Virus record (IMG/VR): IMGVR_UViG_3300042402_001208
Location: 1 to 29,502 of that record
Length of the DNA stretch: 29,502 bases
Source of the DNA: a virus
Reading direction: 5' to 3' (one strand)
The position numbers were made by a program, and so were the translations under genes. A model generated the notes under the pieces. The model worked only from the letters and a program-made list of their open reading frames with translations. It ran no database searches and was not told the origin of the DNA. Below are positions 8,322-29,466 of the stretch, one piece after another. Each line of letters begins with the position of its first letter. Position 1 is the first letter of the stretch.

Positions 8322-11300
8322 ATGGCTATATATAGAATCAATACAAGTAATACAAATTTTTTAACAGTTGGAGAAGAACTTGTATATGCAGGTAAAAATG
8401 GTTTTACCACCACACTAGGTTCTATACCAGTGTTTTGCAACTCTTACGTAGCCAATGCGTCTAGTATAGTATTTAATACTTATAACTTACACCTACTTCA
8501 AGATGATAATTATGCTACGCACGTATTGGATGTACCAGCTTTAGAAGGCATTGCTACTACCTATGTAAAAACTCCTATATTACAGTATACTGCAAGTACA
8601 ATTCAGGAAGGATCTGTAGGACATACAGAACAAGATTCTACTATAAGCTTAGATATTCAAACTTATGATATAACTGCTAATACTATTACAGTTTCTAATA
8701 AGCCTTATGGTGAGGCATCACTTATAAGTTCAATATTACCTACACCACCTTTTTATATTACAGCATACCAAACACTTACCTCTAATAACTTTTCTAATAG
8801 AACGGCGTATATATCTGGATCTACTAGATCTATAAAAAGAACTAATAACGTTGAAGGGGTAACTGGAACTTATACCTCTAATTTAGGAATACTACCAAGA
8901 AGTAGAAATACTATTAAAGTTTATTTAGACGATACACAAACAGATAGCTTTGATCTTATAAATGATAATGTGAACGTATCTTTGAATGGTACTACGAGTG
9001 AAGTAAAGACTGTAGTAGATCTTTATACAGTGCCGGCAATAGAAGCAAAAGATTTAGTATCATTAACTGTTTTTAATAATCTATACTCAGTTACTAATAC
9101 TAGTTACGTTACTAACGACTCTATGTATAGCGCTGATCTTACTAATAGTAATTTTTATAAGATTAAATTTAATAAAGAGTTTTCAGCTAACGTAGGCGGT
9201 GTTTATTTACTAAATGTCAGCCCAGATCTAACTGGTACTGTAGGTAATTTAACTTCAACTTCTTTTACTGTTGATACGTCTTCTTCCTATCCATACTCTT
9301 ATAACTTATCAAATAGTAATATTTATTATCTATATCAAAAAAGTAAAGTTAGATATACTACTGCTAGACTTGATGAGTTTGGTAGGCTACAAGGTACACA
9401 GCCAGCTACTTATATAGTGGAAGCAACCAATATAAACAGATACAATAGATCTAGTAATTCTATAAGAAAAGTTATAGAGGTAGAGCCTTTAAGCGTATCA
9501 AAAGTGCCTAGTGTAACTATAACCGAATCTATAATAATAGATACTGCTGGTGGTGCAGCTATTAATATAACAGCTACGTTCCCAACAATAGTTGGTAGAG
9601 ATGTAACCTCATATGAAATTAAGTATAGAGTAACGTCAGCAGAAGGGGAAGTACTTCCTGGAGGTATTGCATCAATACCTCATGATGAATCTTTAGAGAA
9701 TATATCTTATACAATTAATGGATTACCAAGAGGTAGAACTGCTGGGGGTAATACCTTAGAAATAACTATAACCCCAATGATAGGATTATTTAGAGGGTTT
9801 AATACTAGAATAACACATTTTATTATTGGTAAACAGGGGACTCCATCAGGAATTCAAAATTTAAACGTGGCACAACAAGGAGTTTTCCTATTATTTTCTT
9901 GGCAGTTCCAACTAACAACGGAAGGCTATATTCTAGACCTAGATACAAAAGAAGTTGAAATTAGGCAATATCCTGGATTAGTAGACATAACTTCTCCAGA
10001 ATCTATTGCTGCAGCATGGGGTTTTTCTATTGTAGTGGCAAGAGTGGCATTTCCTAATACTTCCTATACATTACCTATAAGTAGTTTTGGACCATACACC
10101 TATCTTTTAAGAGTTAGAGATACTAGCGATATAGAAAGTGCGGATATTGCGGCTTCGGCTATTAGTACTGTTAGACCATCTACTATTAGAGTTATTAAAT
10201 CTTATAATGAAAGTGATCCAACTACCTCATACATAACACAAGATAATACTCCATTCCCTACTTCTAATGATTACCCAGAATTATCATTTACTAGTTTTAG
10301 TGAGAGTATAAATGGTGGTTTGGTATTAAGTGATAGTTCTAATACTGATAATGCTAATGGTAGTGCTACTGGATTTTCACTTTATGGTAATACTAACTAT
10401 CTAACTACCTCTACTAATCCTTTTGCCGAGTATATAACTCCTATTAGAAACATGGGAGAAGTTGTAAGAGGTACAATTAGAATGTCTCCTATTATAGCAG
10501 CATCAACTCCTGGCATCACTTACGGAACATTTTTTACTACTGTAGTATCTGGAATTACTGATTTTCATGGTTCTGCAGGATTGTCTCCAAGCGCTAATGT
10601 GCTAGTTGATAATGCTTTTGGAGGTATAGGTTCTATATTAGGATTTAATAATGTTCAAGCCGCTCCAGTAACGTATAGTAGTGTACAAAAAACTCTTGTA
10701 AGTGGCGGTAATTTGGGAAACATTTATGCTATAAGAAATGTTGGTCAATTTACTGGTGATGCGTCTAACGCTAATAGTTTTGCGCTAATAGCCGGAGTTA
10801 TTAATGCTAATGCTATAGCATTGGGAGAAGTATATTTTGCAAACGGCAGACCTTCAGGATCTAATAGCTTTGGTAACGTTACAATATCTGGTAACTCTTA
10901 TGCCCTAATTAACTTACTACAATATGGAGATCCAGAATCTACTATCACATTTTTAGGTGAAGAGAGAAGCATATTACAAAACGTATTCGTTAGATATTCA
11001 ACTTCTAATGTGTATTATGCAGCCAACGCTAACGGCGTTGTAGGCTATCCAGGTCACGGTAACGTAAATGGTAATACTTTTACTGGTGCCGCTAATAATG
11101 TTGAATTTGGCTGGAAAAATTATGTACCTGGTGCTACTGATTTTCAATACTTCCAAGTAAAGATTCAGTTAATCAATCCAGATCCAGAACAAGCTGAACT
11201 TATACTTCAAGATTTAAAATATGAAGTAGACACAGAGCAAAAGACTATTAGACAAAAATTACAAATTACTTCAGTTGCCGGTGTAGTATTTGATTACTCT

Positions 11301-11477
11301 TACGCCAATTTCTACGAGATACCAGAAGTATCTGCTATAGTAGTTGATTCTGCTACGTCACAATTTGCGCAGATTTATGATGTAACTAAGACAAGCTGCA
11401 CTATTAAAGCTTTAAGCTCACAAACTGGAAACTTTAGTGATAACGCTACAATCAGTCTTATGGCTGTAGGAGGATAA
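8322..11477 (+). CDS. Tail-tip/fibre protein with fibronectin III-like domains (second half of a split J system)
   Basis: This 1051-residue beta-rich, Ser/Thr/Asn-rich protein begins 5 bases after J, with AGGA at 8310-8313 before ATG 8322. About residues 394-610 look like two fibronectin type III-like modules: VPSVTITESIIID ... ITATFP ... SYEIKYRV, and TPSGIQNLNV ... LFSWQF ... YTYLLRVRD. The C-terminal ~440 residues are low-similarity beta sequence with Gly/Asn-rich turns, ending in VVFDYSYANFYEIPEVSAIV, a motif type frequent in receptor-binding C-termini of J-like proteins. Position and architecture suggest it carries the host-recognition part that in lambda is fused to the J hub. I could not assign the N-terminal ~390 residues. 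The stop (TAA) is directly followed by the inner spanin ATG. Confidence 0.72.
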   Translation: MAIYRINTSNTNFLTVGEELVYAGKNGFTTTLGSIPVFCNSYVANASSIVFNTYNLHLLQDDNYATHVLDVPALEGIATTYVKTPILQYTASTIQEGSVGHTEQDSTISLDIQTYDITANTITVSNKPYGEASLISSILPTPPFYITAYQTLTSNNFSNRTAYISGSTRSIKRTNNVEGVTGTYTSNLGILPRSRNTIKVYLDDTQTDSFDLINDNVNVSLNGTTSEVKTVVDLYTVPAIEAKDLVSLTVFNNLYSVTNTSYVTNDSMYSADLTNSNFYKIKFNKEFSANVGGVYLLNVSPDLTGTVGNLTSTSFTVDTSSSYPYSYNLSNSNIYYLYQKSKVRYTTARLDEFGRLQGTQPATYIVEATNINRYNRSSNSIRKVIEVEPLSVSKVPSVTITESIIIDTAGGAAINITATFPTIVGRDVTSYEIKYRVTSAEGEVLPGGIASIPHDESLENISYTINGLPRGRTAGGNTLEITITPMIGLFRGFNTRITHFIIGKQGTPSGIQNLNVAQQGVFLLFSWQFQLTTEGYILDLDTKEVEIRQYPGLVDITSPESIAAAWGFSIVVARVAFPNTSYTLPISSFGPYTYLLRVRDTSDIESADIAASAISTVRPSTIRVIKSYNESDPTTSYITQDNTPFPTSNDYPELSFTSFSESINGGLVLSDSSNTDNANGSATGFSLYGNTNYLTTSTNPFAEYITPIRNMGEVVRGTIRMSPIIAASTPGITYGTFFTTVVSGITDFHGSAGLSPSANVLVDNAFGGIGSILGFNNVQAAPVTYSSVQKTLVSGGNLGNIYAIRNVGQFTGDASNANSFALIAGVINANAIALGEVYFANGRPSGSNSFGNVTISGNSYALINLLQYGDPESTITFLGEERSILQNVFVRYSTSNVYYAANANGVVGYPGHGNVNGNTFTGAANNVEFGWKNYVPGATDFQYFQVKIQLINPDPEQAELILQDLKYEVDTEQKTIRQKLQITSVAGVVFDYSYANFYEIPEVSAIVVDSATSQFAQIYDVTKTSCTIKALSSQTGNFSDNATISLMAVGG

Positions 11478-17686: not shown

Positions 17687-19502
17687 TGCTTATATTATTC
17701 TTTTTCTCAATCTCTATTCGTGGAATTAGGGGGTGAGAGTAGTCATGTGATATTAAAAAGACATTTAAGTCTTTTTCTTCTTGAAGTACTTCAAACAAGC
17801 GTTCTTTACCTGTTTCATCTAATACTCCAGTTATTTCATCTAAAAATAGCAGGTTTATACTTTTACCGCCTATTTTAGATAAAGTTCCTCTAACCGCTAA
17901 TAAAACAGAAGTTTGTACTCTAGAAAATTCTCCGCCAGATAGAGAATCTATACTTACTTCTTCACCGTTATTAACTACAACGATATTTAGTTTATCACCA
18001 GTTAGTCTAAATAATACTTGGAATTGTCCATCGCTAAGTAACGCTAGATAATAGTTTATACTATCTTCTAGTTGCTTTGCTATATTCTCTAGTTTATAAG
18101 CTACAATTCCAGAAGTAGAAAAGGCTTTTCTTAAAACAGTTAAGCTACTTATCTCTTCTTGAATAATAACTATATCATCTTTTATCAGCTCTTGTCTAGC
18201 TTTAAAATCTCTAATTTGCTCTTTTAGGGCATCTATTTTAGCGTTTCTAATTTTAACACTTTCATTAAAGTTAAGAGCTTCGTCTCTACTTTTCTTTTGT
18301 GACTCATAAGTAGTTTTTAATGCTTTTAACTTATTAGATATATCATTAAAGTCCGGATACTCTTTAGGTATGCTATTATCTATAAGTTGAGATAATTGAG
18401 TAAATCTATCTATCGCTTTAGTATTATTATCATAAGCTTTTTTATCACTAGCGTTTTTAGCTATAATATTAGATAGTTCTTTTATATTAGCTTTTCTAGA
18501 CTCTATAGAAGCAGTTAGAGCTTCTACTTCCCTGCTTAATTCAGCACTTAGCTCTTTAGACCTAGAGTTATCTATTGATTGTTTACAAGCATAACAGTGA
18601 TCTGAAGTATCTAGTGCTTGTAAATCTTTTAACGCTTTGGATTTACTAGATTCTTCTTTATACGACACACTCTTTTCAATCTCTAATTGTTCTAGTATCT
18701 TAGGATCTAGATCTGCGTAAGACATTGCAACGTCAAACTTTATGCCTTGCTGCTCTTGAATGTGTAGATTATTTTTATCTATATTAGAACATATAGATTT
18801 TTGCTCATTTATTTCTGCTTGTAATCTATCTATTTCAGGAACTAGTAACTCGTCAACTGCTGGAACTTCTATAGGCTCTGCCTTTTCTGGTAACTGATTC
18901 TGAGACAGAAATTGCTGTACAGTTTTAAGTTCTCCATTTTTACCTGCTAGCTCTTTTTCTTTAGCGCTATTCAAAGTTTTTAATTCATCGCCTATTTCTA
19001 GATATTTAGAAAAGTTAAATAGATTTACTAAAAACTTCTTTCTGTTAGTGTCAGTAGCTTTTAAGAACTCTAGTAGATCCGTACTGCTTTGGTAAGTGAG
19101 TTGACTAAATGTTTCAAAATCTCTTCCTATAGAATTAGATAGTTCTTTATAAGTATCTAGTACTTTATGCTCACTAATATCTTCACCGTTTTTGACAATA
19201 GAAACTTTAGTAGATGCGCCTTGTCTTTTAGACGTTAATTCGTACTCATCGTCATCAATACTGAATACTAGCTTAGCTTCCCAGGTCTTTGCATTATTAT
19301 ACTTATTTAATATATCAGACTTCTTTAAGCCTTTAACATTTTTATTATATAACAGTTCTTGTATTATTAGAGCTAAAGAACTTTTACCGCTACCATTAGG
19401 AGCTGCTAGTTGTGTTATTTTATTTTGATTTAGTATTAGTTTATTATTCGGTCCATAGCTAAACATATTACTAAATTCTAATGTTTTTAATACTACTCCC
19501 AT
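17673..19502 (-). CDS. sbcC: SbcC / T4 gp46-like recombination nuclease ATPase subunit
   Basis: The 609-residue SMC/Rad50-family ATPase has Walker A AAPNGSGKSSL (about residues 33-42), two long coiled-coil arms, and a zinc hook CYAC near residue 302. The ABC signature LSGGEFSRV is near 517 and Walker B NLLFLDEITGVLD near 550. It is much shorter than E. coli SbcC (1048) and near T4 gp46 (560). With the SbcD-like product of the preceding, one-base-overlapping gene (TAATG) it should form the Mre11-Rad50-type complex that trims DNA ends for recombination-dependent replication. In T4, gp46/47 also degrades host DNA. A hairpin overlaps its stop codon. Confidence 0.94.
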   Translation of the reverse strand: MGVVLKTLEFSNMFSYGPNNKLILNQNKITQLAAPNGSGKSSLALIIQELLYNKNVKGLKKSDILNKYNNAKTWEAKLVFSIDDDEYELTSKRQGASTKVSIVKNGEDISEHKVLDTYKELSNSIGRDFETFSQLTYQSSTDLLEFLKATDTNRKKFLVNLFNFSKYLEIGDELKTLNSAKEKELAGKNGELKTVQQFLSQNQLPEKAEPIEVPAVDELLVPEIDRLQAEINEQKSICSNIDKNNLHIQEQQGIKFDVAMSYADLDPKILEQLEIEKSVSYKEESSKSKALKDLQALDTSDHCYACKQSIDNSRSKELSAELSREVEALTASIESRKANIKELSNIIAKNASDKKAYDNNTKAIDRFTQLSQLIDNSIPKEYPDFNDISNKLKALKTTYESQKKSRDEALNFNESVKIRNAKIDALKEQIRDFKARQELIKDDIVIIQEEISSLTVLRKAFSTSGIVAYKLENIAKQLEDSINYYLALLSDGQFQVLFRLTGDKLNIVVVNNGEEVSIDSLSGGEFSRVQTSVLLAVRGTLSKIGGKSINLLFLDEITGVLDETGKERLFEVLQEEKDLNVFLISHDYSHPLIPRIEIEKKNNISTIRS

Positions 19503-20461
19503 TATTTTATACCTAATTTAGAAAATAGCTGTAGTACGCTATTTTTATTTTCTACTTTAATAAAATCTAGATACAAGCTAAGCTCTTCTTCTAAGGTTTT
19601 ATCTGTTAAGTCTAGCACCGAGTTTTCTGTAGGCTTATCAGCTATCTTCTTATCTAAAAGCTCGTGATTCTTAATTTTGCTGAGATTATCAATAGTTCCA
19701 GTAACTTCATAAACAACGTGATGAAACTTGTCTGCTACTAGCTCTTTTGAAACATCTACTGTTTTTCTTATAAGCTTAGGAAGTTCTAAGTCAACAAATT
19801 CTACTGTATAATTGTTAGGCCCAGTATAGTTTATTACGTTAACACCGTACTCTCTACTAGCATCCCTATCAAAAGTTGTATTGATAGGGCTACCAGAATA
19901 ATATACATTATACTCTTTATATTTATGATTAAAATGTAAGTCTCCTAATAGTACTAATGGCCAAGGTTTTAGCTTATCGAAATCATATTCAGCTGTAATA
20001 TGCGGAGGAACTTCTCCTCTGATATGCGTAACAAGTATATCACCTTCTACGTATGAAGGAGTATTACCTATTTGCATTTCCCCATAAGGAAATAACTGAA
20101 ATCCTTGACCATTAATAACTTTTCTAGCATTTTTAGTATGAAGAATGAAATTAGGATTATTTATAGCATTCTCTGTTTGAAAATGCTCTAAAAATGTATT
20201 ACCTTTTGTAGAAGCTTCATGGTTTCCAGGTATAGCAAGTGTGGGCTTTGTAACAGAATTAGCATAGCTCAGAAATACACAAATCTCATCCGGCTCTGGC
20301 TTTTTATCAAATATATCTCCAGCTAATACAACAATATCACAGTCTTGTTCTAACTGTAATAATTTTTGAAATAAAGCGTTAAATCTATTTAATTGCCACT
20401 CATATGGAATCTTCTTTTTGTGAAGATTTATATGAATATCTGCTACATGTAAAATTTTCAT
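19502..20461 (-). CDS. sbcD: SbcD / T4 gp47-like recombination nuclease subunit (metallophosphoesterase)
   Basis: The 319 residues carry the Mre11/SbcD phosphoesterase motifs: VADIHINL (Asp8, His10), VVLAGDIFDKKPE (Asp49), IPGNHEAS (Asn80, His81), LVTHIRGE (His in motif IV) and LLGDLHFNHKY with YSGSP following. The last ~100 residues would form the cap/Rad50-binding region. It pairs with the SbcC-like ATPase encoded by the next gene, with the SbcD stop and SbcC start sharing a base. Its own start likewise overlaps the stop of the glycosyltransferase gene (TAATG), so translation is coupled across three genes. Confidence 0.94.
   Translation of the reverse strand: MKILHVADIHINLHKKKIPYEWQLNRFNALFQKLLQLEQDCDIVVLAGDIFDKKPEPDEICVFLSYANSVTKPTLAIPGNHEASTKGNTFLEHFQTENAINNPNFILHTKNARKVINGQGFQLFPYGEMQIGNTPSYVEGDILVTHIRGEVPPHITAEYDFDKLKPWPLVLLGDLHFNHKYKEYNVYYSGSPINTTFDRDASREYGVNVINYTGPNNYTVEFVDLELPKLIRKTVDVSKELVADKFHHVVYEVTGTIDNLSKIKNHELLDKKIADKPTENSVLDLTDKTLEEELSLYLDFIKVENKNSVLQLFSKLGIK
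19767..19794 (-). promoter_or_regulatory. Possible internal promoter in sbcD, toward sbcC
   Basis: On the - strand TTGACT (19794-19789) and TATAAG (19772-19767) have a 16-base spacer, each five of six to consensus and like the other TTGACT promoters here. It lies in coding sequence about 265 bases before sbcC, so it may be chance in AT-rich DNA. Confidence 0.25.
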
Positions 20462-21357
20462 TATGCCCTTTGTAGTATGTTTGCTAGATTACCTTCAAAA
20501 GTGTAACTTCCAACGTGATTTAGTTTAGTATTAGGATCAACCCAAATCTCACCGCCCATGCGTTGCCATCTACGACAGAAAGCATAATCTTCAGATAGAT
20601 AGCGTCTATCTACTGGATCAATTTCAGTATCCCAGAAAGCGTAGCAGTGTGGATTAAATTTTGGATCAATAGAAGAATCGTTTTTATAGTGTAGTTCTGG
20701 GAACTCTTGTACCATACGTTCGATAACTTCACGCTTTACAATAAAGAATCCGGTAGATGCGTCTAACACTTCTACTGCTCCCATATGAGTTCTTACTCTT
20801 CTAGTTTCTGGATCTGCTTTTAGATTAATAGCATAGTCAGCACCATAAGTAGCTATCTGCTCAGTTTTACCTGATTGAACAGCATTTTGTACCTGTCCCC
20901 AATTAATTGTTTTTTTAGGGTATGCACCTGCAATAATATCTTTATCCATAGCAAGCATTCTAATAACTGCATCGGGATCAAATTCAATATCCGCATCAAT
21001 AAACATAAGATGAGTGCAGCTTTTATCTTCTAAAAACATAGCTGTTAGAATATTTCTAGCACGAGTAACCAGACTTTCATTTCTTAATGTAGTAATCCTA
21101 AAACGGATTCCATGCTGCATAAGCACTTGAGACATTCTAAACATACTTAAAAAGTATTGGTCGGTTACAGCACCGCCGTAGCATGGAGTGGCAAAAAAGA
21201 TATTCATCTTCCTTAGAAAATTCATATCAATAGTTACTTTATCACCATCAATAGAACTAAACCCTGCTGGCAGATTATTAGTATTAGACACAGTAGAAGA
21301 CGGGGCTCTTTCAAGCCCAGAATTCGCTGCTAAATCTTTTAATGATTTTTTTTTCAT
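20461..21357 (-). CDS. GT-A fold glycosyltransferase (family 2-like), phage type
   Basis: The 298-residue protein has a GT-A core. MNIFFATPCYGG starts the nucleotide-binding fold at about residue 51, RNESLVTRARNILTAMFL follows, and HLMFIDADIEFD supplies the DxD metal/nucleotide-sugar motif (Asp121, Asp123). Later, STGFFIVKREVIERM and LSEDYAFCRRW resemble the acceptor-side ED motif. The first ~50 residues are a polar extension. Substrate and acceptor are not visible. Candidates are virion protein glycosylation, host surface glycan change, or modified DNA bases. It lies between SSB and SbcD with overlapping ends on both sides (ATGA with SSB, TAATG with sbcD), so it is made together with replication proteins. 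Confidence 0.8.
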   Translation of the reverse strand: MKKKSLKDLAANSGLERAPSSTVSNTNNLPAGFSSIDGDKVTIDMNFLRKMNIFFATPCYGGAVTDQYFLSMFRMSQVLMQHGIRFRITTLRNESLVTRARNILTAMFLEDKSCTHLMFIDADIEFDPDAVIRMLAMDKDIIAGAYPKKTINWGQVQNAVQSGKTEQIATYGADYAINLKADPETRRVRTHMGAVEVLDASTGFFIVKREVIERMVQEFPELHYKNDSSIDPKFNPHCYAFWDTEIDPVDRRYLSEDYAFCRRWQRMGGEIWVDPNTKLNHVGSYTFEGNLANILQRA

Positions 21358-22007
21358 AGATCTTCCATTCCCTCAGTGCTATTAAGATCTCCAGCAACTT
21401 CTTCGGTAAAGTAACTAGTATTTTTTAGCAACCATTCTTTTTGTTCTTCATATGTTTGGCGCTTGAAGATTGTGTCAAGGCTAAACAGTTCCATTTCTTT
21501 TTCAGCAGCAGTCAATGGAATAGTATTACGACTAGGCATAACTGTATACTTTACGTTTTGTGGTTGTGGGCCTGTCTTTTCTCTTTTAATAGTGATATCA
21601 TAACCATTATCAGAGTCTGCTGGGCTACCATAGTCAGGATTCATTGCATAATCTACCAATTGCTTATAAATAGTAGTTTTTAGATCTAGAAGTTTTGCTT
21701 TTCCATCTTTTCTGTCAATTACATTACAAATATATGCAAATTGAGGTTTTTCAGAATAGATGTAATCAGGCAGTTCTTTGATAGGATCTCTGCTAGAGTT
21801 GAATTGCTCAGTTTCTCTATCGAAGCTTAAGCACTCTAGAGGGTACTTTTTACCTTCATTAGTTACTACCCAGTAAACATAACGAGGCATAACAGGTCCT
21901 ACGAATCGCACTCTGGTTTCAGCTCCGTCAATGCGGATTCTTTCGATATCGCGTGAGTTGTTAGATTGTGCTTGTGGTTTTTTAAGTTGTGTCCAGTCTC
22001 TTCCCAT
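21354..22007 (-). CDS. Single-stranded DNA-binding protein, T4 gp32-like
   Basis: The 217-residue protein has a basic N-terminal segment (MGRDWTQLKKPQAQ...), an OB-fold-like core with RIRIDGAETRVRFVGPVMPR and YVYWVVTNEGKKYPLECLSF, and a Lys/Tyr-rich middle (LKTTIYKQLVDYAMNPDYG, ITIKREKTGPQPQNVKYTVMPSR). An acidic C-terminal tail (EEVAGDLNSTEGMEDL) is of the kind used by SSBs to recruit partners. This order is that of T4 gp32 relatives, though the gp32 zinc ligands (His and three Cys) are not present; only one Cys lies in that region. It would coat ssDNA for polymerase, helicase and SbcCD. GGAG precedes the ATG by 8 bases. The call rests on motif impression and neighbourhood rather than strong identity. 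Confidence 0.7.
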   Translation of the reverse strand: MGRDWTQLKKPQAQSNNSRDIERIRIDGAETRVRFVGPVMPRYVYWVVTNEGKKYPLECLSFDRETEQFNSSRDPIKELPDYIYSEKPQFAYICNVIDRKDGKAKLLDLKTTIYKQLVDYAMNPDYGSPADSDNGYDITIKREKTGPQPQNVKYTVMPSRNTIPLTAAEKEMELFSLDTIFKRQTYEEQKEWLLKNTSYFTEEVAGDLNSTEGMEDL

Positions 22008-22009
22008 TT

Positions 22010-22441
22010 TTAATTCTCCAGTGGAAATATAATTTTATCTTTGATCTTACGTATCAAAGGGTTTGTGTGGTATTGCGGTTCTACGTAGTGTTCAGGTATC
22101 CAGTTGTTTTCGTTAATAATAGATCTCTGACTTAATATGTAAAGATAGTCACTTTTGTGCTTTGCAGAAAATCTCATGTGTAAAAAAGAACAATCACGTA
22201 TATAGCTTTGTGGTTCGATAGTTTTGTAGTGAGAAAATATACCGGTTCTATGAATTCCTATATACCCATAATTCATAAGAGTGCTAGGAATGGTATCTAG
22301 AAATAGTTTTTTCTTTAATAAGTCTAAGCTGCCTGATAACGGCTTATTTAATCCTACACATAGAGCAAATATGAGGATAAGCTGTGATTCAGGTACTTTT
22401 GTTATTGATGTTATTTCACACCAGTTGTATCGTATTACCAT
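22010..22441 (-). CDS. Protein of unknown function (143 aa)
   Basis: I recognise no family. The predicted protein has a hydrophobic segment near the N-terminus (SQLILIFALCVGLN, about residues 19-32), then mixed sequence with many Tyr, His and Ile, ending IRKIKDKIIFPLEN. It lacks a clear Shine-Dalgarno, and the ATG at 22441-22439 overlaps the -10 of a good promoter, so this start would not be on a transcript from that promoter. The next in-frame ATG is about 55 codons on. Either the frame is translated from read-through mRNA or the true start differs. The stop lies two bases before the SSB start, and the SSB Shine-Dalgarno lies in its last codons, which supports it as an operon member. Confidence 0.6.
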   Translation of the reverse strand: MVIRYNWCEITSITKVPESQLILIFALCVGLNKPLSGSLDLLKKKLFLDTIPSTLMNYGYIGIHRTGIFSHYKTIEPQSYIRDCSFLHMRFSAKHKSDYLYILSQRSIINENNWIPEHYVEPQYHTNPLIRKIKDKIIFPLEN

Positions 22442-22468
22442 AATATAATTTTAAATAGCATTAGTCAA
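22440..22468 (-). promoter_or_regulatory. Sigma70-type promoter before SSB/GT/sbcDC segment
   Basis: On the - strand TTGACT (22468-22463), a 17-base A/T-rich spacer and TATTAT (22445-22440). The first bases after the -35 (AATGCT) and the -10 match the promoter before polA (28180-28208). The -35 shares a base with the stop of the TPR-glycosyltransferase gene, and the -10 overlaps the ATG of the 22441 gene. Confidence 0.7.
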
Positions 22469-24137
22469 TATTAATTTTACTATCAAATACTGATTTAATT
22501 TCTTGATCCAATTGATCAAACACTGAATGCCAATCTCTTAGTTGCTTTTGTCGTATATTAGTAATTGAAGGATACCAAGGACTATCTCTTCTGTCTATTA
22601 GCCATCTCCAATCAGGTGAATAGGCATGTAATATATATGTGGGTATATTAGCGCTTCCAGCTAAATGAGCTATCATAGAGTCTACAGTTATTACTATTTT
22701 ACATTTTTGTAATATTACTAGTGTATCATCTAGAGTTTTTATCTTGTCACTATGGCAGCTTATATTACTAATATCAGATAAGTCTTCATCGTTGTTTAGT
22801 TGTAAATTAATAAAGCTTAAATTACTATTGTTTTGCACAAATTGTTTTATATGTTTTATCGGAACGGATCTGTTTATATCATTGTTGTGAGATTTAGAAC
22901 CTTGCCATAATATTCCGATATCGTACATTGGTAACTCTTGCACATCGCTACTAACTTCAAAAGCTTTAAAATTAGGTATAGCAGGTATAGTATCAATACC
23001 TGTTCTAAATATTCTAGGTAAACTCATAAACGACACTTTATAAGCATACTTAGAATAGTCGTTTTTATGCCAACCTCTTACGAATGAGTCTGTTACAAAT
23101 TCACTATAGTTATTATGTAGAAAACTTCTAAAAGACTTAGGTTCAGCGGTAGCATCATCCCATTTAGCATATTGGTTAGCTATTATCTCTATATCAATAT
23201 TAGCAGCTCGTGTATGCACTAAAGGTATGTATCTAGAAAATTGTAATAAATCGCCTAATCCTTGTTCTTGATAGATAAGTAATTTTTTATCTTCAGGTAT
23301 AGGTTCACCATTCCAATTAGGTATATTGTAGTTTTTCAAACCTTGAAACTGTTGCGTATTTAATCTAAACTCACACAGTCTCCAACCTTTTTGAAAATCA
23401 CCTTTTAGTAACTGTAACATGCCTTCTTGATAAAGAGAATCCATTACAATTTCATATTCTTCAGATTTTTGAGCTTTTTGACAAGATTGTATAGCTTCGT
23501 CAATATTCATTAAGCTAGAATGTGCAGAAGCTAAATTCTTATTTATAAGAGGATCACCAGGACTAAAATCTTCTGCTGAATTTAGTAGAGCTACAGCTTC
23601 TGAGTAGTTGTGCGTAGAAAGTAGACTAGCTCCCCAACCTGTTAATATGTCTGTAAGCATTCGTACATGCTCACTAGAATTATCAAACTCAGCTCTAAGC
23701 ATGTGGAATGCTTTAGAGAAATTATCTGTAGCTTTTAGTTGTTTTTCTAGATTTCCTTTGTACTTTTTACTTAGTACTAGTGCGTATGTTAAATAGTTTT
23801 GAGGTCTTTTACTATTAAGCAGTAATAGCTGTTCAGCACATTCTTCTGCCTTAGAAAATTCTCCTAGCTCTAAATAGCTAGAAGCTAAACCAGTTATAGC
23901 ATCTTCATTGAGAGGATTCTTAATTAAAGATTGCTCAAAATAACTAATCGCTTTTATATGATTGTTAATAGATTGTTCCTTCCAACCTTTAATAAAGAAA
24001 GAAAAATAATGAACACTGCTAAGTTTTCTCTTTACTAAGCTAATAGCTTTGTCAAAGCAACCTGCACTAGCTAAATCAATGGCATTATTAATAACGACTA
24101 GTTCTCTATTGTCTCGTAGTTTTGTTTTCTGTACCAT
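22461..24137 (-). CDS. TPR-repeat protein with GT9/GT-B-like glycosyltransferase domain
   Basis: The 558-residue fusion has an N-terminal half (about residues 10-250) of tetratricopeptide repeats, with repeated helices such as AISYFEQSLIKNPLNEDAIT, ASSYLELGEFSKAEECAEQL, SEAVALLNSAEDFSPGDPL and NIDEAIQSCQKAQ. The C-terminal half resembles heptosyltransferase/O-GlcNAc-transferase-type GT-B domains: LLIYQEQGLGDLLQFSRYIP near 290, DIGILWQGSKSHNNDINRS, then ITVDSMIAHLAGSANIPTY near 483, the nucleotide-sugar binding end. It is thus probably a protein or glycan glycosyltransferase whose TPR part selects the acceptor. It starts inside the last 40 bases of the helicase gene, so it belongs to the early operon. 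Acceptor and sugar are unknown. Confidence 0.82.
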   Translation of the reverse strand: MVQKTKLRDNRELVVINNAIDLASAGCFDKAISLVKRKLSSVHYFSFFIKGWKEQSINNHIKAISYFEQSLIKNPLNEDAITGLASSYLELGEFSKAEECAEQLLLLNSKRPQNYLTYALVLSKKYKGNLEKQLKATDNFSKAFHMLRAEFDNSSEHVRMLTDILTGWGASLLSTHNYSEAVALLNSAEDFSPGDPLINKNLASAHSSLMNIDEAIQSCQKAQKSEEYEIVMDSLYQEGMLQLLKGDFQKGWRLCEFRLNTQQFQGLKNYNIPNWNGEPIPEDKKLLIYQEQGLGDLLQFSRYIPLVHTRAANIDIEIIANQYAKWDDATAEPKSFRSFLHNNYSEFVTDSFVRGWHKNDYSKYAYKVSFMSLPRIFRTGIDTIPAIPNFKAFEVSSDVQELPMYDIGILWQGSKSHNNDINRSVPIKHIKQFVQNNSNLSFINLQLNNDEDLSDISNISCHSDKIKTLDDTLVILQKCKIVITVDSMIAHLAGSANIPTYILHAYSPDWRWLIDRRDSPWYPSITNIRQKQLRDWHSVFDQLDQEIKSVFDSKINID

Positions 24138-25408
24138 TCTAATCTACCTTTTTGCTGGTTGTATACTATAGGACCTGTTAACCAAAAATCTATTATAAGA
24201 GGATCTTTTTTATCAGGGTGTTTTCTTAGTATTCGACCTATTCTTTGTTCTAGTTTTGCATAGTTATTGCCGGGACACGTAAACATAAGCGTATCTAATC
24301 TATGACAACTAATACCTTCATCAAAAATCTTGGTAGATAATATAGCCGAATATTTAGTACCTGCATTTTTTAATATATCTTCTCTCTGAGCATTTTTAGT
24401 ACTACCAACCAACAATACACTTCCTGGTATTCTGCTTTGAAGCTCTTCTAGCATTTCTATTCTCTCACTAACAATGAGAGGGCATCTTCCATGACTTATT
24501 TTATCTCTTGCAGTTTTAGCTATTAAATCTAAGTACGAGCTGTTTTTAGCTAATTTTGTTAGTTGCCTAGTCCAATCTCTGTTAGGATTAATAACTCTAA
24601 AAGGTATATCGGTCTGTATTACTTGTACGGTAGCGGATAACTTATCTACATTTTCAGCAATTATTCTATTAGGACCAAAGAAGTCTGGTAAAATTATGTG
24701 TAAGCCATCTTTTCTAATAGGAGTGGCACTAAGCGCTATTTTAACTCTAGCATTTACGCCATTAACAGCTCTACTAAACGTCTCAGCTGGGCATAAGTGT
24801 GCTTCGTCAACAAATAAAACTTCAAACTGATCCATAACCTTATCTAATCTAGTTAGTAGTGATTTGTATATGGCTATAGTTATTGGCTTTATACTTTCTT
24901 TTCCATCACCAATAAATCCTACTTCTTCTACGTCTATTAGTTCTTTTATAGAGTCTAACCACTGATAAGCTAACAGTTTAGTATGACATATAATAATAGT
25001 TGGTTTTTTATATGTACCAATTAAGTAAGTACCTAAATATGTTTTTCCCCAGCCGCAATCGGCTTTAACTAATCCACTGTAAAGCTTGTTATTCTGTAGT
25101 AGCTTATCAGCAACCGATTGCTGTTCTGTTTTTAGTTTACCTTTAAAAGCCCATTCTTGAACATCTGTATTAGCTCTTAGGTCTTCAAGTTCTAGTATGT
25201 CTAGCTTATGCCAAGATCCACTGGGAACGCTGCACATTCCAGTTTCTTCATCATACTCTAGAGTAGAAAAAAAGGTATCCCCTAAGTTATAGTTAAATAA
25301 TACGTATCTAAAGTCATGAAAAGGTATGTCTAATATGTCTTGCTTATTAAAGTATATCTTATCTGAAATAGTTGCTTTACGTATTTTATATTTTATTTTG
25401 CTATTCAT
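24098..25408 (-). CDS. SF2 DNA helicase, UvsW-like
   Basis: The 436 residues hold a complete SF2 motor: a Gln-motif-like EQQSVADKLL, Walker A ADCGWGKT (Lys122), motif Ia ICHTKLLAYQW, DEAH box VDEAHL (201-204), and SAT (227-229, ALSATPIRKDG). The second domain has TKIFDEGISCHRLDTLMF and motif VI QRIGRILRKHPD. An ~85-residue N-terminal part is unassigned. T4 UvsW and similar helicases migrate branched DNA and unwind R-loops and forks, helping the switch to recombination-dependent replication. That fits SbcCD and the resolvase-like nuclease nearby. The start shares a base with the preceding stop (TAATG). Confidence 0.9.
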   Translation of the reverse strand: MNSKIKYKIRKATISDKIYFNKQDILDIPFHDFRYVLFNYNLGDTFFSTLEYDEETGMCSVPSGSWHKLDILELEDLRANTDVQEWAFKGKLKTEQQSVADKLLQNNKLYSGLVKADCGWGKTYLGTYLIGTYKKPTIIICHTKLLAYQWLDSIKELIDVEEVGFIGDGKESIKPITIAIYKSLLTRLDKVMDQFEVLFVDEAHLCPAETFSRAVNGVNARVKIALSATPIRKDGLHIILPDFFGPNRIIAENVDKLSATVQVIQTDIPFRVINPNRDWTRQLTKLAKNSSYLDLIAKTARDKISHGRCPLIVSERIEMLEELQSRIPGSVLLVGSTKNAQREDILKNAGTKYSAILSTKIFDEGISCHRLDTLMFTCPGNNYAKLEQRIGRILRKHPDKKDPLIIDFWLTGPIVYNQQKGRLEWYRKQNYETIEN

Positions 25409-28208: not shown

Positions 28209-29096
28209 TTATAAATTGTCTTCAATATTGCCTAAAAAGTATTCTGCTGTTTCTTTATTAAAACTACCTGGATCAAGACCTTCAGACAATACTATGTTAT
28301 TAGTTTCTATATTACGCTGTTCTAACAGTTTTTCTATTTTAGCGGCTGCTTGTTTTCCCGCGGAATCACCATCCATAAGTATAGTAACCTTTCTACATCC
28401 GTATTCATCTAGTAGCTTAGCTTTTTGAGCTGTAAAATTTTGAGTTCCAAAAATACACAGACTATTGGTATAACCTAGATCGTGTAGTTTTAGCATATCA
28501 AACATTCCTTCTACTAATATTACATGTGAAAAGTCTGTAATCTTATCTAGCGGAAACAAAATATCGCTAACTGACGCACCAGCAGGCTTTCTTAAATACT
28601 TAGGAAAACTTCCTGAGTTACTGAGAACCTTATAACGACCTTCTATAAACTTTAATTTCTTATGTTGATATACTGGTATACAGGCATAGTCGCTTAATCC
28701 GCTAGCGTCGGTAAAAAATGCACCAAAATTCTTTAAAGTTTTTGCTGATATTCCTTTAAAATCATGATTAATAGCAATTGTTGGCTCAGGCAGTCTAACT
28801 TCTCCCTGATACTTAATATTATCTAGTTTGCTTTTAAGCTTTTTAATTTTAAAAGACATTTTAGAAGCAATTTGTACTGTAGACTTAATGCCTAAAGAGT
28901 CCAGAAATTGTTGAGTATTACCTCTATGACCGCATGCAAAACAATGGAAAGCGCCTTTCTCTAGATTTAGAGAAAGGCTAGGATTCGTATCAACATGTAA
29001 GCCACTAAAGCATCTTACAGTAAGTTCAGACGGCTTATTAGGATTAATAACATAATTAATGCCACTATCCTTAAGCACATCTTCAACGCTCTGCAT
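28209..29096 (-). CDS. dnaG: DnaG-type DNA primase (CHC2 zinc finger plus TOPRIM)
   Basis: The 295-residue protein has an N-terminal zinc-binding domain with Cys29, His34, Cys52 and Cys55 (VRCFSGLH ... FHCFACGHRG). A TOPRIM catalytic domain follows: Glu196 in HVILVEGMFDMLKL and Asp242/Asp244 in VTILMDGDSAGKQAA. It is shorter than E. coli DnaG (581) because it lacks the C-terminal helicase-binding domain, and it is not fused to a helicase as T7 gp4 is. The replicative helicase must therefore be elsewhere, outside the window. AGGAGA lies 8 bases before ATG 29096, inside the end of the cupin gene (14-base overlap). Confidence 0.94.
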   Translation of the reverse strand: MQSVEDVLKDSGINYVINPNKPSELTVRCFSGLHVDTNPSLSLNLEKGAFHCFACGHRGNTQQFLDSLGIKSTVQIASKMSFKIKKLKSKLDNIKYQGEVRLPEPTIAINHDFKGISAKTLKNFGAFFTDASGLSDYACIPVYQHKKLKFIEGRYKVLSNSGSFPKYLRKPAGASVSDILFPLDKITDFSHVILVEGMFDMLKLHDLGYTNSLCIFGTQNFTAQKAKLLDEYGCRKVTILMDGDSAGKQAAAKIEKLLEQRNIETNNIVLSEGLDPGSFNKETAEYFLGNIEDNL

Positions 29097-29466
29097 TCTG
29101 ATTATCTCCTGGCATTACTCTAAAGTTATCTTCTGCAGAATCAGCAGTGCTAACTTCAATAATTTCACTATCATCTTCTAAAGCAATTAGCTGATGTACT
29201 ACTAGAGGTAAAATTCTAATAGCGTCACCCTTATTCAGTGGCTGTTCGGTAATAGATCCATTTTCAGTGTTAATCAATCTTAGAGTAAAACTACCGTGCT
29301 GAACATACCAAGTTTCGTCTTTTTCTCTATGAAAGTGCATAGAGAACTTATTTCCTACTTTAGCAAAGTGCAATAACTTACCGCAGTATAATTCATTTGT
29401 TGCAAATATGTATTCATATCCCCAACCCTTTTTTACGTATCCACTAAATCTCGTTACGTTTGACAT
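29083..29466 (-). CDS. Cupin-fold protein, sugar isomerase-like
   Basis: The 127-residue single-domain cupin has motif 1 as KFSMHFHREKDETWYVQHGSF, with His/His/Glu metal ligands in HFHREKDE, and motif 2 as RILPLVVHQLIALED, with its His. A conserved start GWGYEYIFATNELYCGKLLHF resembles cupins annotated as mannose-6-phosphate isomerase-like or lyxose isomerase-like. A metal-dependent sugar isomerase or sugar-binding role is inferred, which could connect to the two glycosyltransferases downstream. The ATG has AAGG upstream and overlaps the end of a preceding partial frame. Confidence 0.82.
   Translation of the reverse strand: MSNVTRFSGYVKKGWGYEYIFATNELYCGKLLHFAKVGNKFSMHFHREKDETWYVQHGSFTLRLINTENGSITEQPLNKGDAIRILPLVVHQLIALEDDSEIIEVSTADSAEDNFRVMPGDNQNAER

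Follow-up and report, generated by a model that had tools for sequence, protein, structure and literature searches.

The alpha-glucosyltransferase (AGT) of phage T4 co-purifies with gp45, although expression counts for more in the dominance of this enzyme (PMC13216743). TAGT (PF20691), which is associated with TET/JBP, is also counted among the phage DNA glycosyltransferases (PMC13216743). TibC-type heptosyltransferases catalyze protein heptosylation (PMC4358343). In the single-stranded DNA-binding (SSB) protein gp32, the LAST motif of the N-domain, KRKST (residues 3-7), mediates SSB-SSB contact (PMC12424627). Here we analyzed two glycosyltransferase genes in the 29,502-bp IMG/VR virus record IMGVR_UViG_3300042402_001208 (the window) and compared them with related loci and contigs, from which the counts below are taken. 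The first encodes a GT-A glycosyltransferase of 298 amino acids (hereafter GT-A; 20461..21357, minus strand) and the second a 558-amino-acid fusion of a tetratricopeptide repeat (TPR) domain and a GT9-like GT-B domain (TPR-GT; 22461..24137, minus strand). GT-A is a core gene of the replication module in this large group of aquatic bacterial viruses, and TPR-GT is a later, clade-limited insertion in the operon.

A preliminary description of this DNA had reported two glycosyltransferase open reading frames (ORFs) with overlapping frames in the replication block, and we found both of them there, with overlaps of 4, 1 and 40 nt. GT-A lies between SSB and SbcD, as described. Its ATG overlaps the stop codon of a gp32-like SSB with an acidic C-terminus (21354..22007, minus strand; Pfam gp32 E 4.4e-7; phrog_1607) by 4 nt (ATGA), and its own stop codon has one base in common with the start of a gp47-like SbcD (19502..20461, minus strand; phrog_100 E 6.7e-25), in the sequence TAATG. 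TPR-GT had been placed between the helicase and SSB. The helicase side of this placement is correct: the TPR-GT ATG lies 40 nt inside the gene of an SF2 helicase of the UvsW/ResIII type (24098..25408, minus strand; Pfam ResIII E 2.6e-18), and an overlap of exactly 40 nt is kept in 8/8 loci. On the other side, TPR-GT is separated from SSB by orf143 (22010..22441, minus strand), which the description lacked and which encodes a basic 143-residue protein (isoelectric point (pI) 9.1) with no Pfam or PHROGs match. orf143 always adjoins SSB in this group and is perhaps a helicase loader or mediator.

Among 80 relatives collected by their GT-A (59-100% identity), which are not phylogenetically independent with respect to gene order, SSB is the gene directly before GT-A in 79, with a spacing of -4 to +1 nt in 79/79. 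Because these loci had been picked by GT-A, the search was repeated with two SSB queries. Of the 99 loci returned, 96 extend 400 nt or more beyond SSB, and GT-A is found within 1.4 kb 3′ of SSB in all 96. The contig lists show that about 50 contigs of the second set are absent from the first. No insertion occurs at the orf143-SSB junction (0/69) or the SSB-GT-A junction (0/79); the next junctions carry insertions in 19/70 loci after GT-A and 19/51 after SbcD. Genes inserted after GT-A include c51 (methyltransferase-like by eye), radical SAM, B12-radical SAM and Methyltransf_24 genes, and those after SbcD include a 2-oxoglutarate (2OG)-oxygenase-like gene and a weakly PAPS-reductase-like gene. 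In L040, L043 and L045, the genes between GT-A and SbcD encode a SPASM radical SAM protein, a methyltransferase and a B12-binding radical SAM protein. The preliminary description proposed that both enzymes act early, with replication. For GT-A, the gene context in the 79/79 and 96/96 loci makes a stronger case than that description could see; for TPR-GT, a clade-limited insertion, the proposal is not established. At the level of titles and abstracts, we found no description in the literature of an SSB-linked phage glycosyltransferase.

GT-A consists of an N-terminal motif and linker (residues 1-44) and a catalytic domain (residues 45-298). It matches PHROG_1574, labelled ‘unknown function’, with an E-value of 1.3e-49 over residues 43-289, and its matches to Pfam Anp1 and GT2 are weak and below cut-off. 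An AlphaFold2 model built from 29 phage sequences has a predicted local distance difference test (pLDDT) score of 79. Searching the PDB with this model in Foldseek returned LH3-GT, STIV A197, ColGalT1 and Fringe; for LH3, ColGalT1 and A197 the E-values are about 1e-7 to 1e-8, with template modelling (TM) scores of about 0.4. A197 was also reached from GT-A by profile (E 0.0007). Asp121 and Asp123 (the DxD motif), Glu256-Asp257 and His281 are invariant in 31 divergent members, down to ~30% identity. The predicted fold together with the DxD metal/nucleotide-sugar motif identifies the protein as a GT-A fold glycosyltransferase. Relative to L006, dN/dS is 0.031 for GT-A, 0.022 for SSB and 0.103 for TPR-GT. 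GT-A is almost as constrained as SSB, and the values of 0.03 and 0.10 place both glycosyltransferase ORFs beyond chance. The LH3 match also raised the idea of a collagen-like acceptor, which was dropped, as the window proteins examined contain at most 3 consecutive G-X-Y triplets.

Within the family, a basic N-terminal motif is present only in the SSB-linked window branch. In the alignment, GT-As of this branch begin with this motif, MKKKSLKDLA in the window, followed by a linker of varying length (motif and linker, 21226..21357, minus strand). Residues 1-27 of the window enzyme have pLDDT values below 50, as expected of disorder. A pattern for the motif matches 28 of 30 distinct GT-A N-termini, a circular count as the pattern was derived from these GT-As; its matches to 1 of 502 other ORFs of the same loci and to 0 of 113 GT-As of three other branches are not circular. 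A stricter gp32-like pattern, chosen post hoc, matches 11/30 GT-As and 0/502 other ORFs. The motif may serve as an SSB-binding tether, for which these observations provide a lead and not proof.

In the family tree, the window branch has 98% SH-aLRT support, the Cr30-type and MW202825-type branches are joined at 99%, and the node joining them to the window branch has 81%. The Cr30-type GT-A lies directly 5′ of the gp45 clamp gene in 66/78 loci, and the genes next beyond the clamp are gp44, gp62 and RegA in 53, 42 and 37 loci, where the names of clamp, loader and RegA follow, by analogy, the annotation of Caulobacter phage Cr30 and Sinorhizobium phage phiM12. Both of these phages carry distant members of the family. 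A median of 54.5 residues follow HxG in the Cr30-type C-terminal tail, compared with 19 in the window branch. The tail contains a conserved SATAD motif and repeated LLKKF-like endings, with variable P/A/T-rich linkers between. An LLxKF ending is found in 24/47 Cr30-type GT-As and 0/659 comparison proteins. The polymerases of Cr30-type phages end otherwise, mostly with a TLDxF/W type, so that LLxKF is at most a candidate clamp-binding motif. Both branches could belong to a new class of replisome-tethered GT-As, the window branch held by a peptide that binds SSB in imitation of the gp32 cooperativity motif and the Cr30 branch by the sliding clamp, and both could glycosylate phage DNA at bases whose modifying enzymes are still to be recognized; this generalization we regard as doubtful. 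QueC is encoded upstream of the Cr30-type GT-A in 23 loci; in L161 and L172, for example, it lies a few genes 5′ of the GT-A and clamp genes, a hint that the DNA of those phages may contain 7-deazaguanine. Prokaryote relatives of GT-A were set aside, being mostly distant genes without a common neighbourhood or phage-like contigs.

TPR-GT has a different distribution and different neighbours. It is confined to the closest clade (L002-L019), and in other loci the helicase is followed by orf143 without it. It evolves about three times faster than GT-A, judged by dN/dS. Its N-terminal part matches TPR_19 (E 1.8e-12), and the nearest catalytic profile is Glyco_transf_9, whose score of 16.8 bits is below the cut-off of 22. 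No GT41 Pfam family is among its matches at E 0.1. The AlphaFold2 model consists of a TPR superhelix and a GT-B domain, with SPINDLY and OGT as top Foldseek matches at TM scores of only 0.2-0.4. GLGDL at residue 293 and VDSMIAHLA from residue 485 are conserved in the clade and are candidates for the GT9-like motifs GLGD and DSxxAHLA. Genes for a cupin and a PfkB kinase are present in 4/4 TPR-GT loci that reach upstream of the primase, an association seen in one clade that may reflect one event. The cupin (29083..29466, minus strand) is weakly WbuC-like and absent from all 26 TPR-negative loci, and the nearest family of the kinase is HldE domain I (E 5.7e-60, below the equivalog cut-off). Further upstream of the replication block and on its strand, an eight-gene glycan cassette (L092 9239-15860 in G001; also L094) is present in a contig near-identical to the window (G001) and in a relative of that contig (G003). 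It contains five glycosyltransferase-like genes (three assigned by eye, with no family match), two methyltransferases and one epimerase. Some TPR-negative contigs also have the GT9-like gene of this cassette. The simplest reading is that TPR-GT is probably a protein glycosyltransferase, perhaps using heptose. The preliminary description had treated the two enzymes as a pair, which is not supported: GT-A is a core gene, whereas TPR-GT is restricted to one clade and accompanied by sugar genes of its own. The architecture of TPR-GT and these co-occurring genes favour glycosylation of proteins and a glycan pathway apart from GT-A, so the two should not be read together.

Our best explanation, to which we assign a probability of about 0.4, is that GT-A is held at the fork and acts on DNA, and that TPR-GT separately acts on protein. 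GT-A would be translated directly after SSB, presumably with translational coupling. We infer that it is held at the replication fork, where the basic motif on its flexible linker would most simply bind the gp32-like SSB. The Cr30-type GT-A genes next to the clamp gene and the co-purification of T4 AGT with gp45 speak for such a place. From there it could place a sugar on the newly made phage DNA, at a base modification not recognized here. DNA is the likeliest, though unproven, acceptor, and our best single guess, because of gene position and not chemistry. The TPR superhelix would capture a protein, to which the GT9-like GT-B domain would add a sugar, plausibly heptose, and TPR-GT may belong to a larger glycan pathway whose genes lie upstream.

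Several observations weigh against this explanation. GT-A is not basic (pI 6.6), and the resemblance of its motif to gp32 LAST is short and was noticed post hoc. GT-As of the HTVC023P-type branch lie among structural genes, adjoining a GT4-type gene in 79/79 loci, and for this reason we take replication linkage to be a trait of some branches and not of the superfamily. The window has no recognizable base-modification gene, in agreement with the preliminary description; the thymidylate synthase encoded there is of the ThyX type and has the canonical RHRx7S motif. That description had suggested a search of the rest of the genome for base hypermodification genes. Searches covered 22 window-type and 5 Cr30-type contigs, and none of the families searched was found in the 22 window-type contigs, Tet_JBP being searched with no working control. 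QueC, ThyA/hydroxymethylase and C5-methyltransferase were not found in these 22 contigs, which may be incomplete (controls worked). Tet_JBP is absent from 27/27 contigs, but its positive control gave no match either. The TAGT profile matched 0/18 contigs (control matched in one genome) and the AGT profile (PF11440) 0/14 (T4 control matched); neither was found in 14 of the 22 window-type contigs. TAGT enzymes are of the GT-A type, which makes them a lead only; PF20691 is not among the Pfam matches of the window GT-A at E 0.1, and PF11440 gave no Pfam match. Published restriction data on DLP6 were not used, as the digest sentence states no outcome.

Alternatively, both enzymes could serve a pathway for host-surface or virion glycans, with their place in the replication operon doing no more than set the timing. 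The upstream glycan cassette in related contigs, the HldE-like kinase and cupin of the TPR-GT clade, and the HTVC023P-type relatives among structural genes are in line with this. We nevertheless consider it unlikely, as nothing is inserted between SSB and GT-A and GT-A still accompanies SSB in L055, L057, L061 and L074, contigs of 60-107 kb where the GT9-like gene of the cassette was not found. It is also rather improbable that GT-A, although tethered to the replisome, has a protein acceptor, such as SSB, a different replication protein or a DNA-bound protein of the host. Its obligate pairing with SSB, the failure to find a base-modification gene, a pI ill-suited to DNA by itself and the action of the nearest solved folds, LH3 and ColGalT1, on protein side chains would all suit a protein acceptor. 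However, this fold match is a general one for GT-A enzymes, and the Cr30-type branch pairs with the clamp and not SSB; therefore, a single SSB substrate fails to explain both branches. A chiefly structural role of GT-A as a partner of SSB, with vestigial sugar transfer, fits their strict co-occurrence, but is very improbable given strong purifying selection on the gene and the invariant DxD, ED and late His.

In the rest of the window, Pfam and PHROGs assign tail genes to the left part (plus strand) and the replication block to the right part (minus strand), where the ResIII/Helicase_C helicase, gp32-like SSB, SbcD, SbcC and PolA were identified. A promoter scan gave no result above chance. 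A 1051-residue probable fibre or tail protein with no PHROG match is encoded at 8322-11477 (plus strand), directly 3′ of a lambda-J-like gene. In some relatives (L028 5457-6350 and L067 408-1274), a PyrB-like gene (aspartate carbamoyltransferase, by eye) lies between orf168 and the helicase. L092 1876-2448 (minus strand) encodes a 2OG-Fe(II) prolyl-hydroxylase look-alike (by eye); the ferrochelatase label of the matching PHROG is doubtful.

PHROG_1574 is a phage family without assigned function that has hundreds of relatives in IMG/VR. One branch is always 3′ of SSB and another usually beside the sliding clamp, which suggests a role at the replication fork that can be tested. Should the acceptor be DNA, these enzymes would provide an added route to DNA glycosylation and might account for resistance to restriction among many uncultured aquatic phages. 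That GT-A and TPR-GT are separate also warns that a glycosyltransferase in an early operon is not always a DNA enzyme.

GT-A matches PHROG_1574, but its branch differs in having the N-terminal motif and linker and in being linked to SSB. T4 AGT is likewise a phage glycosyltransferase linked to the replisome, but it is a GT-B enzyme, whereas the window enzyme is GT-A, and no hydroxymethylcytosine pathway was found. The best GT-A fold matches, STIV A197 and the glycosyltransferase domains of LH3 and ColGalT1, come from other hosts and contexts. TPR-GT shares the TPR and GT-B architecture of OGT and SPINDLY, but its catalytic domain is nearer to GT9 by sequence. It may resemble the TibC-type enzymes, as a distant phage relative (H62) is annotated as tibC and its clade carries an HldE-like kinase, but it differs from them in having a TPR domain.

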